The notes under the pieces are model-generated. The model was not told the origin of the DNA, did not search any database, and saw only the letters and a program-made list of their open reading frames with translations. Source: a virus. From it: a stretch of DNA of 35,506 bases. This document shows positions 1 through 35,506 of the stretch, piece after piece (the first letter of the stretch is position 1; each line of letters starts with the position of its first letter). The position numbers and the translations under genes are program-made. The DNA lies in the IMG/VR virus record IMGVR_UViG_3300032561_000943, positions 1-35,506 of that record. One strand, 5' to 3'.

Positions 1-427
1 CTCTTAACATCCAGCTATGCTTTTTATGTGCATCTTGACGGTCGGCTAAGAAATTGCTTAATCCATGATCGCCATTTTGTTCTGCCATTTCAAAAGTAAT
101 ACGGAAAATATTAGCCATTTTTTCGCTATCTTCTAGTAATTCACGCAACATTGTTTGAAAATCTGGAACTTCGTTTTCGTCACGAACATTAGTTAGCATA
201 CTAAACTTTTGTAAACTTGCAGGTGTGTATATTTGTAATGCACGTAATTGTTCTGCAAATGTATCTATGCTTCCGTATACTTCTTCGTATATAGTTCCGA
301 ATAATCCGTGTAGTTGTGTGAACAACGGACCTTCTACGTTCCAGTGGAAGTTATGTGCCTTTAGATAAAAACTAAATTCACTAGCAAATGCTGTTTTAAG
401 AGCTAAATGATACTTGTTATGTTCCAT
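1..427 (-). CDS. dps: Dps-like ferritin-fold protein, 3' end cut by window edge
   Basis: Dps proteins form 12-subunit shells that oxidise and store iron and shield DNA from oxidative damage. The ATG lies at 425-427 and the frame stays open to base 1, giving about 142 residues with the C-terminus missing (E. coli Dps has 167). The Dps core is plain: HNFHWNVEGPLF at residues 25-36, LHGLFG at 39-44 and IDTFAEQLRAL at 54-64. Ferroxidase-site residues H28, H40, D55 and E59 keep the E. coli H51/H63/D78/E82 spacing, but the position equivalent to D67 is Gly44. Its ATG overlaps the upstream stop as TAATG, so it is probably translated coupled to the packaged-protein cluster. It has no capsid-targeting-like leader of its own. 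The family call is strong. Whether it acts in the host cell or in the virion cannot be seen. Confidence 0.88.
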   Translation of the reverse strand, partial: MEHNKYHLALKTAFASEFSFYLKAHNFHWNVEGPLFTQLHGLFGTIYEEVYGSIDTFAEQLRALQIYTPASLQKFSMLTNVRDENEVPDFQTMLRELLEDSEKMANIFRITFEMAEQNGDHGLSNFLADRQDAHKKHSWMLR

Positions 428-897
428 TATATACCGTATTTGTTTCTTTTAGGTTTAGCCACTGGGCTTACTGTATTATTTTGTCCAGGTTCATCGCTAG
501 TAGGAGTTCCTAGTCTATCAACTTTAAGTCCATGTCGTTTAGCCTGTTGTACAACATAGTCGTGTTCTATAGGACTAAATGGCATGATCAGACCTTCTTG
601 ACCTAAACGGTCTTTACCTGGAATATTACGATCGCCTGCCGCAATACTAACACCTAAACGATACATACCGTAAGGGTTATTATCGATTTCAACACCGATC
701 GGTCCTGGCATAGCATTGAACTGTTCTGGATTTAGTTTATCTCGAGCACTTCCGTATTCTGTGTTACCTTCTGAACGGCTGTGAACATCATGCGGATCTC
801 CGTCGTTAGGCACTCCTAACTTTCCGTGAGTGTGATCTTTGGCCTTGTATATAACTTTTTGGCCTTTGTTTTCAGAAATAAATTCTTTTGCTCTCAT
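427..897 (-). CDS. Putative head-packaged protein, paralogue of the polyprotein C-terminal domain
   Basis: 156 residues of unknown function. The N-terminus MRAKEFISE|N resembles the T4 capsid-targeting leader (MKTYQEFIAE type), with a plausible prohead-protease cut after E9. The rest is clearly related to the last ~130 residues of the upstream 1154-residue protein. Both contain PYxxYRxG followed by a small hydrophobic stretch, then a QQA helix, and both end almost identically (VSPVAKPKRNKYGI here, ISPVAKVKRNKYGV there). The basic tail could bind nucleic acid or the capsid shell, but that is inference. The start overlaps the upstream stop as TAATG (895-899) and the stop overlaps the dps start in the same way, so the three genes form one translationally coupled unit. 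I recognise no catalytic motif. Confidence 0.8.
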   Translation of the reverse strand: MRAKEFISENKGQKVIYKAKDHTHGKLGVPNDGDPHDVHSRSEGNTEYGSARDKLNPEQFNAMPGPIGVEIDNNPYGMYRLGVSIAAGDRNIPGKDRLGQEGLIMPFSPIEHDYVVQQAKRHGLKVDRLGTPTSDEPGQNNTVSPVAKPKRNKYGI

Positions 898-1295
898 TAT
901 ACACCATACTTGTTGCGTTTTACTTTTGCAACAGGACTAATTTTATTTGTATCGGCTACTTCTTCGCTACGCATACTGCTTAATTTTTTAATTGGACCAG
1001 CTAGCGTATCTTTAGCGGCCTGTTGGATTATTTCGTATTCTTCATCTGTGAATACTGATAGCAAAGGATCTCCAGCCATAGGTCCTGCTGGAGGAATGTG
1101 GTTAGTGCCTTTACCGTCTGCAACAGCCATAGCAATACCAAAGCGATAACCTTGATAAGGACTTCCGTTAGATTTGTTTTGACTAATGCCTGGTATACTT
1201 AATCCGCCCTTGATAGCGGCAGAAGCGGCATCGGTATCCATCTTTGTAAAGTCAGCGTGTATATCACCCTCGTTAATAAAGTCTCTAGCTCTCAT
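897..1295 (-). other. C-terminal paralogous domain of the polyprotein, with its own leader and possible internal start
   Basis: From the internal Met1023 (ATG at 1293-1295) the polyprotein begins again with MRARDFINE|G, the same kind of leader found at the starts of neighbouring genes. It then continues as a homologue of the 156-residue downstream protein. This looks like a once-separate packaged-protein gene fused in frame to the enzyme above it. Either protease cleavage at E1031 or internal initiation could release it as a separate 123-132 residue product. No good Shine-Dalgarno sequence precedes the internal ATG (A-rich AGAAAA only), so cleavage seems more likely. Confidence 0.6.
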
Positions 1296-4200
1296 TTTTC
1301 TAATCCAATAATTTGCTTCTTTTATATTTAGCGGTTCTTCGGCAGGCGGATTATGAGCTGGGTGTTTAGGTTTAGCCAGACCTTTAGGACCATAATTGAT
1401 AGCATAGTCGTCATCTTTTGGACTCATATTAGTACGAACTCCGCTAGGAGAAGTGTGCGGTTTAGCAATCCCCATGCCTTTACGTGTTATGTCCATTAAA
1501 TGTAAAATCCATTCGCGACCTAATTTTTTAACATCGAACCCTTTTTCCCATAACGCTAGTTGTTGTTGTGGTGTAGCTTTAGGATCTTTAAGAATATTTC
1601 TTAATTGACTAAAACTCATACCAGTGCCGCGTGGAGTAGCTTCTAAACTAACTTTAACGTGTTCGTAGCCTTGGAATTTATTAACAGATTTCATTAATGC
1701 ATTGGCAATATTCATGCCTGCTTGATCTTCACCGACCATAATAATAATATTATCGTAACGTGGAGGTTTTCCTGGCAACGGATTAATTAATTCATGCTTA
1801 ATCTTTTGCATTAATGTACCGCCTTCGTGCGTAACAGTACTAATCTGTTTTGCATATTGCGGATACATTTTATGCCATGTTTGTACTTTTACACTTGTTG
1901 GTATTGGATCATTTTTACCTTCAGCATTTCCAATAAACAAGTATGGATCACCACCTACTTCTTGTGCTTTTTTAATCGTATAATCAAATAACTGTTCGTG
2001 TCCAATATGTCCAACAAAAGACCCGATGGCTACTACTGCTGTTTTGTTAGAATTTTCGCGAGGACGCTCTTGTCTTGCACTTGCCTTAGCGGCTAGTTTA
2101 GCACTAATAACATCTCGCTGTTCTTGACTAGTAATTTTAATAGGACCTAATCGACTATTAATAACAATACCTTCATAGTCTTTACCTAACAAGTCTTTAC
2201 CAACGATATTTGGATCGTTGATAATTGCTTTTTCTAATTCTAATTTAACAGGAGCTAGTTTTTCTTCAACTTCTTTTCTTAATTGTACACTAGCACGGTC
2301 ACGTTTGCCGTGTGTATCTGAAACAATGCGTTTAAGTTCATCAATATTATCTAGAACATTGATAATTTCAGTTACATCTAAAGGTTTATTTTGTGTAAGT
2401 GAATTACTAATGAACATTACACTTCCTTGCTGTCCAATGCTAGTAATAGTTTTAATAATCTTGCCAGCATCTGGAACATCTTCACCAGTAGTTGCATCTG
2501 CTACACGGAATGGTACTAGTGCTAATTGTACACCTTTAGGAAGTTTGTCGTAGTGTATACCTACAAATTTTAATTTGCCTTCTGGAGTTTCTGTGGCAAA
2601 TGGTAAAAACAATACTTCGCAAGTTACTTGCTTATTCATAAGCAACTCTGGGCCTGCGGCATCGTCGACTAGTTTAACTGCTTTAATCATTTCGTTAAAC
2701 AAGTCGTCAAACATTTTAGCACGGCCTAAGATTTCAGGATCTTGCGTACCTTTAGCTTGATGATATTTTAAAAAACTTGCTTCATATCGAGGAGCAGTAT
2801 TACTAGTACCCATGAAAGGCTTGCCTTCTGAGTCTTTACCAAAACGTCCACCGAATCCGTCTACTTTAACGTTTAACGGAATATTTTTTAAATGGAATTG
2901 TCCGTTACCTTGATGTAATTCGTCTACTAGATCTAAGAAGTCAATAGCTTTTAGATCTTTCATATGAGGCATATTTTTTCTAAGTTGAGCTTTAACTTCT
3001 GCCTCATTAATTTGTTCAGTTGGTTGAGCTGGACTTCTCCAGTCTGGCCACGTACCTGCGGCAATTGCGTCTTTTCTATGCTTGCCGTATTGTAACTTCT
3101 TACCAGCTTGATCTTGTGTTGGCTGATATTCACGTTTGAATTTTTCTAAATCTAAAAATTCGCCTTCATATTCTTTTGCCATTTCAACAGCAATTGGTCT
3201 TAGATTTTGTAATCCAAGTTTTTCTAACATCTGATCAACGGCAGAAAACTTAATTGCGGCATCGCCCTGTGGATCGTCACGTTCAATCATTTGAGCACCT
3301 GGCTCAAATAAAATTTCAAAGAAACGTTGTACTGTTTCTTGTTGTTCTTTTTGATTTAGATATTTTCCTATTAAATCAACAGTACCTAAAAAACTCCATT
3401 GTAATTTTAAATCTTCTGGACTAGGCTCTGCGTTAGGATTGTGTCTTAAAAACAGTTTTTTAAACTGACTTGCTAAATTTTGGTCGTATGCTCGTTCTGG
3501 TGCGGCTACTGGTTGCACCACCGGTAATTGTTGTTGCGGATTTTCTGGATGAGGTAATGTCTGGGGTTCACCAGTTTTTTCGTCATCTGCCGGTCCGTAA
3601 GGTTCGCTTAGACCACCGCCTTGCTTACCTGATACACCAAACGAATATTTTGAAACATGATCTGGTGCTACGTTTGTGACCTTAGCCTTACCACGTCCAG
3701 CAGAAGTTTTAACATGAGCGTGTACTTTAATCGCACCTGCTAATGCTCGATAAAGATATTTGTGAAATACACCTTTGACATTGTTAGTTACATCGCTCCA
3801 TTCAGAACTGTGACTAAACTTGAACCAATCATTAGGAACTCCGTTTTCGTATCCTCCAAATTCAAAGTCGATTTGAATTTTAATTGGAGGATTAGCAAAC
3901 TGGAATAGACCGTTATATTGTTCGTTACCTGCACCAAACCCTAAAAAAGTTGTATCGCCTATTTTTTTATTTGTATGTTTTGTTAAAAAATCTTTAACTA
4001 ATGGCTCTAAATCTCTATCGCATTGTGTATCGATGTCGCCAACTTTTGGTTTATGTTTAGCAAACTCTTCGTCACTAATACCTTCTGTATTAAAAAAGTG
4101 TAAACTACTTCCGCTTAGGAATTCTTTACTAGATAGTAGTTTAGGTTCCCATAAATTCTTTTTAGTTTGTTTATGGAACGCCGCATTAATGTCGTGTAGC

Positions 4201-4361
4201 AACTTATTTAGAAGTCCAACCATGTATGTACGGTTATGTACTTCTAAATTAATTTTATCTGCGTAGTGTACTGGCTCGCCTTTTTCTGCATCGCCGATAC
4301 TTAGGTTGCCGCCTTCATTGATAGCAGATGATTGACGAAAAAATAGCTCTCTTAAAAACAC
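897..4361 (-). CDS. Giant multi-nucleotidyltransferase polyprotein (Pol-beta-like + KxDG ligase-like + HxGH adenylyltransferase-like)
   Basis: 1154 residues with a GTG start (4359-4361), chosen because AAGGA sits six bases upstream; the overlapping ATG leads straight to a stop. In order, I see the following. (1) Leader MFLRELF ending in INE at 14-16. (2) A Pol-beta-type nucleotidyltransferase signature: SGSS 83-86, GDIDTQ 108-113, IQIDFE 163-168. (3) A Pro/Gln-rich linker around 260-290. (4) A covalent ligase/capping-type domain: KVDG 499-502 (nucleotidyl-lysine K499), E582 region, YEGIVI 729-734 and IKI 741-743. (5) A HIGH-type adenylyl/cytidylyltransferase domain: GHIGH 784-788 and MSFSQLR 915-921. 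(6) A C-terminal domain from M1023 paralogous to the next gene. INE|A at 451-453 and INE|G at 1029-1031 fall at domain borders. The fold assignments rest on motifs. The biochemical role (RNA repair, capping, NAD metabolism) is unknown. Confidence 0.75.
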   Translation of the reverse strand: MFLRELFFRQSSAINEGGNLSIGDAEKGEPVHYADKINLEVHNRTYMVGLLNKLLHDINAAFHKQTKKNLWEPKLLSSKEFLSGSSLHFFNTEGISDEEFAKHKPKVGDIDTQCDRDLEPLVKDFLTKHTNKKIGDTTFLGFGAGNEQYNGLFQFANPPIKIQIDFEFGGYENGVPNDWFKFSHSSEWSDVTNNVKGVFHKYLYRALAGAIKVHAHVKTSAGRGKAKVTNVAPDHVSKYSFGVSGKQGGGLSEPYGPADDEKTGEPQTLPHPENPQQQLPVVQPVAAPERAYDQNLASQFKKLFLRHNPNAEPSPEDLKLQWSFLGTVDLIGKYLNQKEQQETVQRFFEILFEPGAQMIERDDPQGDAAIKFSAVDQMLEKLGLQNLRPIAVEMAKEYEGEFLDLEKFKREYQPTQDQAGKKLQYGKHRKDAIAAGTWPDWRSPAQPTEQINEAEVKAQLRKNMPHMKDLKAIDFLDLVDELHQGNGQFHLKNIPLNVKVDGFGGRFGKDSEGKPFMGTSNTAPRYEASFLKYHQAKGTQDPEILGRAKMFDDLFNEMIKAVKLVDDAAGPELLMNKQVTCEVLFLPFATETPEGKLKFVGIHYDKLPKGVQLALVPFRVADATTGEDVPDAGKIIKTITSIGQQGSVMFISNSLTQNKPLDVTEIINVLDNIDELKRIVSDTHGKRDRASVQLRKEVEEKLAPVKLELEKAIINDPNIVGKDLLGKDYEGIVINSRLGPIKITSQEQRDVISAKLAAKASARQERPRENSNKTAVVAIGSFVGHIGHEQLFDYTIKKAQEVGGDPYLFIGNAEGKNDPIPTSVKVQTWHKMYPQYAKQISTVTHEGGTLMQKIKHELINPLPGKPPRYDNIIIMVGEDQAGMNIANALMKSVNKFQGYEHVKVSLEATPRGTGMSFSQLRNILKDPKATPQQQLALWEKGFDVKKLGREWILHLMDITRKGMGIAKPHTSPSGVRTNMSPKDDDYAINYGPKGLAKPKHPAHNPPAEEPLNIKEANYWIRKMRARDFINEGDIHADFTKMDTDAASAAIKGGLSIPGISQNKSNGSPYQGYRFGIAMAVADGKGTNHIPPAGPMAGDPLLSVFTDEEYEIIQQAAKDTLAGPIKKLSSMRSEEVADTNKISPVAKVKRNKYGV

Positions 4362-4363
4362 AT

Positions 4364-4738
4364 TTAGTCCTTATAACGTCCGTTAGAATGATGTGTTGTA
4401 TGTTCGTCATACAATTTTTCACATGCCTGGCTAAGTGTATCTTCGTTTATGTCGTCTGGAAGTTCACGAATAGGAAATTTTTTAATATAAACTTTATAAG
4501 ACTCTTCAACAGCCTTTTTAAAGATTTCGGGTTTAGGATCTTTCTTACCTTCTTTTAAATCTAAAAATTCACTTAAAGCTGGGTACAAATAACGACGATA
4601 GCAATGATCATCGTTTTCCATGAAATGTACTAGGTCTTCTGCAAGGTCATAGTTAATCTCACGGGAGCCATCTTCTCTTGGCATTACAAAGTCAGAATCT
4701 TTAAAAAAAGAACCTTCAAATAGTTCACGTATACGCAT
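4364..4738 (-). CDS. Small protein with capsid-targeting-like leader, unknown function
   Basis: 124 residues. The start MRIRELFEG matches the leader seen on the two genes downstream, and LFE|G is a possible prohead-protease site. The body is acidic and helical-looking (DLAEDLVHFMENDDHCYRRYLYPALSEF), with no enzyme motif I recognise; it ends HTTHHSNGRYKD. It is the first gene of the packaged-protein cluster. A T4-late-like box (GATAAATA) lies 46 bases upstream, and a small hairpin sits in the leader. Its stop (TAA, 4364-4366) is followed two bases later by the GTG start of the polyprotein, so co-translation is likely. It could be a scaffold or inhibitor partner of the enzyme polyprotein. That is inference from position only. 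Confidence 0.75.
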   Translation of the reverse strand: MRIRELFEGSFFKDSDFVMPREDGSREINYDLAEDLVHFMENDDHCYRRYLYPALSEFLDLKEGKKDPKPEIFKKAVEESYKVYIKKFPIRELPDDINEDTLSQACEKLYDEHTTHHSNGRYKD

Positions 4739-34431: not shown

Positions 34432-34719
34432 ATGTATATTGGTACTGAATTCCGTGAAAACTTCTATGTGCGTACCAGTAAAAAGGGTAACGTACATACA
34501 TATAACCGCAAAAAAAGAGTGGTAATCTTTCGTTGTGATAGTTGCCAGGAAGTGTTTCACCGCGACAAAGGGGCGATGGATCCTAATCGTTTAAACAACA
34601 ATTATTATCATGTTTGTGGGTGCTGTGATGTTAAAAAATTTGCCCAATCAAAGGGCGTAGAATCTCGAAAAGTTTGGGATATGCCAGCAAGCAGTCTTAA
34701 GACACTTGACCAACTTTAG
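34432..34719 (+). CDS. Small zinc-ribbon protein
   Basis: 95 residues on the plus strand, against the general direction. CDSC (35-38) and CGCC (62-65) form a likely four-cysteine zinc ribbon, separated by a basic loop with HRDKGAMDPNRLNNNYYHVC. Basic stretches before it (TSKKGNVHTYNRKKR) suggest nucleic-acid binding. The end reads VWDMPASSLKTLDQL. I associate this pattern with small zinc-ribbon proteins of marine phages but no function is known. No clear Shine-Dalgarno site is visible before the ATG. Its 3' end overlaps the convergent minus-strand gene by four bases. Confidence 0.75.
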   Translation: MYIGTEFRENFYVRTSKKGNVHTYNRKKRVVIFRCDSCQEVFHRDKGAMDPNRLNNNYYHVCGCCDVKKFAQSKGVESRKVWDMPASSLKTLDQL

Positions 34720-35506
34720 CTTTTATAATCCGGATCGCCCGGATGTATTTGACTATATCCACGCTTCCATTCTTTTCTATATTGATCAGCTGGAATAAGT
34801 CCAGAAAAATCCAATTTCTTAGCAACTCTATCTTTGAGTTGCGGGTAAAGTTTTTGTATATACGCTTTATCTTTACTGCGAGGACCTATCAAGGTATAAC
34901 TTCCCGGCTCAGTTTCATAACCTACAAACCACTCGGTAGGTGCAGTCTTTCTTGGAGGATTACCGCTGGTATATCCGTTGTCATGTATTTGTAATTTTTT
35001 AGGATCTGTATAATCGTTCTGCGGTTGGGGACCAGTATCATCAGTCGATTGAGCTAAGGGATTTTTACCTTCCTTGCGCCACGGTGTAATTTTTACACCT
35101 GTCGCACGAGCATGATCAAAAAAACCTCTGGGGATTTTTAAGTCAGGATCATATTGGATTTCGACTACAAATGGTGATTTTATAGGAATAGGTTTAAATA
35201 CCTGTTCTTCTGTTTCATATTTGTAATGCATCATAGCACCGACTTTAGGAACTACTTTGTAGCCGTGCTTACGTAAAGCATTTTTATCTATAACAAATTG
35301 AGCCACACCATGCCCGTAGGGAAAATGCAAGTATTGATTACGAGTTAGACTTATGCGTGGAATAGATTCTTCACCATTTTCTTGATCCATGTCTTGATCA
35401 AAGTCAAAGGGCTCTTGAGGTTTTAAAGCACCACTTTTTAATATCTTCATCATAGTAGGACCGTCTGGCACTCCGTGATATAAGAATTGATCGTTTACAC
35501 CCTCGT
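34716..35506 (-). CDS. Possible ADP-ribosyltransferase-like protein, 5' end beyond window
   Basis: At least 263 residues; the frame is open to the window edge. A GTG at 35469-35471 could be read as a start, but upstream in-frame codons give NDQFLYHG directly before VPDGPTMMKILKSGALKP, completing a YHG-x(n)-IL-x-SGAL motif. That motif resembles the first strand-helix of ADP-ribosyltransferase or 2'-phosphotransferase folds. ISLTRNQYLHFPYG then FVIDKNALRKHGYKV follows, again like the second ART block (S/T-R-N plus VID). The C-terminal half (TEWFVGYETEPGSYTLIGPR) is unassigned and ends basic. The true start is therefore probably outside the window. The ART call is tentative; no catalytic Glu can be fixed. 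Confidence 0.6.
   Translation of the reverse strand, partial: EGVNDQFLYHGVPDGPTMMKILKSGALKPQEPFDFDQDMDQENGEESIPRISLTRNQYLHFPYGHGVAQFVIDKNALRKHGYKVVPKVGAMMHYKYETEEQVFKPIPIKSPFVVEIQYDPDLKIPRGFFDHARATGVKITPWRKEGKNPLAQSTDDTGPQPQNDYTDPKKLQIHDNGYTSGNPPRKTAPTEWFVGYETEPGSYTLIGPRSKDKAYIQKLYPQLKDRVAKKLDFSGLIPADQYRKEWKRGYSQIHPGDPDYKS

Follow-up and report, generated by a model that had tools for sequence, protein, structure and literature searches.

The DNA stretch analyzed here (the window) is the 35,506-nt virus record IMGVR_UViG_3300032561_000943, i.e., a genome fragment of a T4-like freshwater phage. Its minus strand carries three adjacent genes whose products begin with leaders of the T4 capsid-targeting type (Table 1). 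An earlier reading of the letters (the original prediction) had quoted these leader sequences, and all of them were recovered as quoted and on that strand. The middle gene encodes a polyprotein composed of several nucleotidyltransferase (NTase) types. In many related loci, a leader-bearing open reading frame (ORF) like the one for the MRIRELFE↓G protein (arrow: predicted cut) sits just upstream of the polyprotein gene; neither Pfam nor PHROGs provided a family for the small leader proteins, including this 124-aa one. Based on the sequence comparisons described below, we consider it very likely that the locus represents a T4-like head-cargo cassette, in which a leader-tagged multi-enzyme precursor would be divided by the head protease.

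Table 1. Features of the window, with the evidence on which each assignment is based (arrow: predicted cut).
Feature	Position	Strand	Basis or remark
Protein MRAKEFISE↓N..., 156 aa	427-897	-	separate leader-bearing gene; paralogue of fragment 3
Polyprotein, 1154 aa, GTG start, MFLRELFFRQSSAINE↓G	897-4361	-	ORF reading
Protein MRIRELFE↓G..., 124 aa, directly upstream of polyprotein	4364-4738	-	family unassigned
N-terminal capsid-targeting-like leader, MFLRELFFRQSSAINE, residues 1-16; site 1 after E16	4314..4361	-	conservation, leaderless orthologues
Predicted mature fragment 1, residues 17-453, Pol-beta-type NTase	3003..4313	-	GSS(84-86), GDID(108-111), D165
Site 2, INE453↓A, disordered variable linker	3003..3011	-	conservation, X1 ligase start
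Predicted fragment 2, residues 454-1031 or to 1015, ligase-type + HIGH-type NTase	1269..3002	-	motifs, Foldseek, PHROG
Additional candidate site IKE1015↓A	1317..1325	-	NIKE↓AN in several homologues
Internal leader MRARDFINE, residues 1023-1031, site 3	1269..1295	-	separate ORF in L021/L022
Predicted fragment 3, residues 1032-1154	900..1268	-	'MRAKEF...SPVAKxKRNKYG[IV]' small-protein family; BLASTP to separate leader-bearing ORFs, many loci
Probable further leader-bearing cargo gene, start beyond window end	34716-35471	-	match MKIWELLDE↓GVNDQFLYHG... in 120-kb relative G005

Within the polyprotein, INE followed by Gly or Ala occurs at residues 16, 453, and 1031 only, in exact agreement with the predicted pieces of 437, 578, and 123 aa. 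The INE tripeptide is found three times versus 0.24 expected from shuffles (P=0.002), and INE[GA] three times versus 0.04 (0/5000 shuffles); IKE1015↓A, a fourth motif match shortly before site 3, was absent from the original list. Fragment 1 combines the GS...DxD...D signature with the fold of a Pol-beta-type NTase: its AlphaFold2 (AF2) model has a mean predicted local distance difference test (pLDDT) score of 89.6, with values below 50 confined to residues 445-453, and Foldseek retrieved DNA polymerase beta/mu (probability 0.96-0.99, E 0.006 at best) as well as a resemblance to poly(A) polymerases. Among 21 sequences, including those of other phages, G84 S85, GDID108-111, D165, and a QxDxE motif are invariant. 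Fragment 2 (model pLDDT 71) holds the ligase-like and HIGH domains together, as had been anticipated. The ligase-type (covalent nucleotidyltransferase) domain contains the invariant KVDG499-502 (motif I), E730 with its following G in EGIV (motif IV), and K742 in KIT (motif V), with tRNA ligase Trl1 and DNA ligases as Foldseek matches. The HIGH domain, with HIGH785-788 and an invariant H785xGH788, was matched to PPAT, FAD synthetase, and NMNAT and joins the HxGH motif to a Rossmann-type fold (TM-score versus PPAT of 0.72 by target length). The PHROG match of fragment 2 is a cytidyltransferase, and PDB profile searches gave weak matches for the HIGH domain and nothing else.

Relatives of the polyprotein were found at 55 loci in IMG/VR, and 45 sequences entered the alignment. 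Site 1 is fully conserved in the 42 N-complete ones, with E at the cut, I/L/V at the third position before it (P3), and G directly after it (P1') in 42/42 each and a variable P2. It thus reads h-x-E↓GGN (h, hydrophobic residue), and leader residues 8-13 differ among the relatives in kind and number. At site 2, 43/45 sequences keep E453, 36/45 have I/L/V at P3, and 38 have A at P1'; the surrounding linker is nearly unalignable, and the site lies in the sole fragment 1 segment of pLDDT below 50 in the AF2 model. E16 and E453 are the only ones of the 68 Glu residues tested to pair h-x-E in at least 80% of the homologues with poorly conserved upstream residues (upstream identity 0.36 and 0.09, respectively). 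The letters INE themselves had been expected to be conserved and were rejected as the signal: the relatives have LNE, LSE, IIE, LLE, VNE, and others, and what persists at sites 1 and 2 is the more general pattern of a hydrophobic residue, any residue, and E, followed by a small one.

Gene starts in isolated phages point to the same positions. Leaderless orthologues of fragment 1 occur in Vibrio phages pv27 and Va1, Xanthomonas phage X1, and Stenotrophomonas phage Mendera; those inspected begin with MGGN, a start at the residue right after the predicted site 1 cut, and other Vibrio and Stenotrophomonas records match fragment 1 from its first residue, GGN. Campylobacter phages have a different leader with the site at the same place (MKLSELMFILE↓GGN); the leader-bearing NTase of Campylobacter phage IBB_35 is AEF56792. 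In X1, the NTase, another gene, the ligase, and the HIGH-NTase are encoded separately in polyprotein order, and BLASTP pairs the third residues of the X1 ligase and of predicted fragment 2, which puts Met1 of the X1 ligase at A454. The arrangement in Mendera is as in X1, with the ligase starting within about two residues of A454. Both phages share with the polyprotein the one order of NTase, ligase, and HIGH-NTase, but they differ from it by the use of separate leaderless genes and by the extra gene between NTase and ligase. Since the orthologue gene starts coincide with the predicted cuts, cutting would recreate proteins that exist on their own elsewhere. CDS0281 of Vibrio phage pv27, which by eye looked like a ligase + HIGH fusion, was discarded, as profile comparison did not support the homology.

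The original prediction also called for a gp21-type protease and for sites of the same kind in the capsid protein. No prohead protease is encoded within the 35.5-kb window; three of the largest related contigs (G001, 219 kb; G002, 221 kb; G004, 143 kb) encode a homologous polyprotein together with an S77 gp21-type protease (E about 1e-26) that adjoins the gp23 and portal genes, with T4 gp21 as the PDB match of the G002 enzyme (5jbl, E 2e-14). From these contigs we infer that the window's own phage would have such a protease as well. In all three, such sites number 11-13 over the roughly 360 aa of a gp22-like scaffold, and two conserved ones lie close to the gp23 N-terminus (LLE18↓G and L-x-E41↓SA), with the T4 cut position not matched exactly. 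The large contigs without gp21 that were tested are also without a portal gene, which indicates that the head-gene region is missing from them. In contig G003 (192.8 kb, L035), gp20, gp21, and gp23 went undetected, probably reflecting an incomplete genome, though this is surprising at its size. A separate observation concerns small leader proteins (MKIRDILE↓SATAGATSSANIG...; G001:202505-202762 and L027, 1060 bases past the polyprotein) that resemble gp23 after its second candidate site (LAE↓SATAGATSAGN).

The leader-bearing cargo cassette is located downstream of the polyprotein. When ORFs near the polyprotein were pooled over loci (partly homologous and some of them spurious), leaders were present in 60/297 downstream ORFs on the same strand, 18/292 upstream ORFs, and 6/527 ORFs on the opposite strand (P=4e-22 for downstream versus opposite strand, and 3e-7). 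Two leader-bearing ORFs downstream of the polyprotein, L037:8239-9753 (MRFREIVE↓GAKP) with a transglycosylase SLT domain and L021:11156-13465 (MNIRDLV) with a peptidoglycan-binding domain, possibly encode head-carried entry enzymes. For the gene at the right edge of the window, an identification as ADP-ribosyltransferase, prompted by eye by an LYHG motif, was abandoned in view of no family match in Pfam or PHROGs.

Longer relatives of the polyprotein, up to 1919 aa, contain extra modules divided by sites such as QGVAE↓G, and these modules recur in other proteins that start exactly after V-x-E↓ (GVAE↓, SVHE↓, FVKE↓). A near-identical separator, QGVAE↓G/A, marks module borders with up to seven copies per protein (L016:10258-12849 and the polyproteins of L024, L028, L030, L020, and L050); a scan of four genomes and the window showed it in cargo-region genes alone. 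Many long relatives (L009, L015, L020, L028, L030, L033, L043, L048, and L050) end with a helix-like tail that places h-x-E a few residues before the C-terminus (LINKIIVNE↓AIQ, YIKLLE↓SK), possibly a counterpart of the leader by analogy to T4 Alt. Putative cargo proteins from different T4-like phages also have in common a tail of roughly CWKGYRKAGTKMKGGKRVNNCVP close to the C-terminus (L009, L015, and L033; G001:36675-37301; P-HM2 gene 164). We lean, with some reserve, toward the broader view of a modular cargo-polyprotein system in freshwater T4-like phages, in which modules would be shuffled between interchangeable h-x-E↓ sites behind a single leader and cut in the head, such that a multi-enzyme kit is delivered at infection.

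Leaders of the same kind are carried by virion enzymes of T4-like cyanophages. The S-CREM2 virion proteome, as published, lists a cytidylyltransferase, a SAM hydrolase, and a kinase (PMC10665884); of these, the cytidylyltransferase gp154 starts with MKNFSSFLTE↓A, the SAM hydrolase with MKDFDSFLEE, and the kinase with VKRFDAFLTE, and further virion proteins have such leaders as well. An F[FILMV]xE leader is present in 5/52 proteins detected by mass spectrometry (MS) versus 1/165 (P=0.003). The first strict leader pattern was not significant (P=0.27), and patterns drawn from the T4 internal-protein and window leaders gave P=0.016 and 0.003 in a test that is partly post hoc. Likewise, the NMNAT of S-SCSM1 (ORF91), detected in virions (PMC9602691), starts with MKSFLQFLKE↓A. 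S-CREM2 gp154 and S-SCSM1 ORF91 thus resemble the polyprotein in joining a HIGH nucleotidyltransferase to a leader like a capsid-targeting sequence (CTS), in their case on virion-detected proteins, but unlike the polyprotein they show no fusion to a Pol-beta domain; the leader on these NTases is not mentioned in the available text of the original descriptions. As an aside, S-CREM2 gp12 (OR473000), a virion-detected protein annotated as a Cas9-like nuclease, has FASFMAE↓A near its start, a sequence which suggests that it is head-packaged, too.

Several points weigh against the proposed cutting. The looser motif [ILVM]xE[GASN] occurs four times in the polyprotein versus 4.3 times expected by chance, so an unusual number of such sites was rejected as an argument, and it is the placement and conservation of the sites that carry the signal. 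At site 2, P1' is E or T in about eight homologues. Many homologues have DKLPE↓G, a match to h-x-E↓G, within their ligase fold; a motif match by itself is therefore insufficient as proof of cutting, and accessibility must matter as well. Leader clustering is weak genome by genome (P 0.03-0.15) and becomes clear only on pooling loci, and the protease gene, as stated above, is missing from the window fragment. The virion MS support comes from T4-like phages other than the window lineage, and the cyanophage authors caution that virion enzymes might be co-purified. Lastly, the variable site 3 has a competitor in IKE1015↓A: INE1031↓G is present as predicted, but the C-terminal boundary is uncertain between 1015 and 1031. 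Cutting at 1031 is plausible, but the sequences make a weaker case for it than for cutting at 16 and 453, and 1015 is an alternative.

The origin of this C-terminal module bears on how it might be released. Residues 1023-1154 fall into a small-protein family with an MRA[KR]EF.. start and an SPVAKxKRNKYG[IV] end, several separate copies of which are often found downstream of the polyprotein. In L021/L022, the module is a separate overlapping ORF starting with MRASEFTRKKLAE↓GD. Family membership and this separate ORF together suggest that the internal leader is most readily seen as a gene start kept after fusion. The resemblance of MRARDF... to a gene start and the overlapping ORF in L021/L022 would be in line with production of the module by internal translation initiation at Met1023 and not by proteolysis; we regard this as improbable, given that the Shine-Dalgarno pairing before Met1023 (-3.1 kcal/mol) is no better than that before several other internal Met codons and that the module is fused in frame in about ten relatives. 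For the polyprotein as a whole, one could envisage that the leader is a real, removed capsid-targeting sequence and the internal INE a plain linker, leaving one joined 1138-aa multi-enzyme of the classical polyvalent type. T4 internal proteins indeed lose the leader alone, many polyvalent proteins are predicted to work as fusions (PMC5512222), and the ligase and HIGH domains clearly stay together with no site between them. Yet E453 is the sole conserved residue of an otherwise unalignable linker, the X1 gene start equals A454, modules of longer relatives start exactly after h-x-E, and T4 Alt is cut by gp21 at a second site (PMC5694885), such that we rate this explanation as unlikely. Very unlikely, in our estimation, is a scenario without any protease signal, where the N-terminal helix would serve assembly or contacts within an enzyme complex of the cytoplasm, and folding would be the reason for keeping the E-G junctions: it would account for the conservation of GGN after site 1 in its own right and fits with cleavage being predicted only, but leaderless orthologues start exactly at GGN, the leaders recur on unrelated proteins of one cassette, gp21, gp22, and gp23 genes are present in relatives, and the same kind of leader is found on MS-detected virion enzymes of other T4-like phages.

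Returning to the head-cargo reading with internal cutting, which the refuting conditions named in the original prediction left standing, we propose that cargo proteins bearing the leader pattern M-x(2-4)-[ED]-[FL]-[FIL]...h-x-E would dock via this leader on the prohead scaffold core. During head maturation, the gp21-type S77 protease would cut after h-x-E and thereby free the leader, and sites of the same type between the modules would yield the Pol-beta-type NTase (17-453), the ligase-type + HIGH-type NTase (454 to about 1015/1031), and the small cargo protein (1032-1154). The mature enzymes would be retained in the head and ejected with the DNA, to act before phage gene expression. Most likely they would act on RNA ends or on nucleotide cofactors (tRNA or NAD), repairing or modifying them to counter host defence, which is a guess from the folds. 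For the window phage, core targeting, cleavage, head retention, and ejection are thus what we infer from sequence relationships.

The principle as such has precedents. For T4 IPIII, the first 10 residues suffice for targeting and processing, and the review states that T4-like phages may make general use of the CTS (PMC9026906). The internal proteins IPI-IPIII with their 10-residue CTS resemble the locus described here in the short leader at the N-terminus with h-x-E at its end and in the predicted targeting to the core and removal by gp21; they are small, mostly single-domain proteins with one cut, whereas the polyprotein is a large precursor of several enzymes and has further sites where its modules meet. 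T4 Alt, an ADP-ribosyltransferase that is packaged and ejected, is cut by gp21 at an N-terminal ITE-6 and at a second, C-terminal LTE-619 (PMC5694885), and the polyprotein likewise has several candidate sites. Unlike Alt, it comprises three nucleotidyltransferase types, and cuts within it would part enzymes from each other and not trim an end. Polyvalent proteins, described by Iyer et al. (2017) as single, predicted-injected polypeptides with several unrelated catalytic domains including Pol-beta NTases (PMC5512222), resemble the polyprotein in having disparate catalytic domains in one chain (here Pol-beta NTase, ligase-type, and HIGH NTase), but here the prediction is that cuts at prohead-protease sites part the domains prior to ejection. 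With its propeptide, the protease in relatives, and the sites in scaffold and capsid proteins, the polyprotein would qualify as T4-type CTS head cargo of the IP/Alt kind. Among the open-access papers searched, none was found to describe a head-protease polyprotein of this kind; relative to the known IP/Alt-like principle, the new element would be the placement of several sites between enzymes within one precursor.

These findings would carry the T4 capsid-targeting idea beyond single small proteins, to precursors of several enzymes that the head protease would divide, and they provide a sequence rule predicting which unassigned phage proteins ride in the head. Applied to T4-like genomes, this rule would nominate many genes as early injected effectors or counter-defence proteins, for which the cultured cyanophages and Campylobacter phages are test cases already at hand. 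The natural leaders and cut sites may also serve for loading proteins into phage heads.

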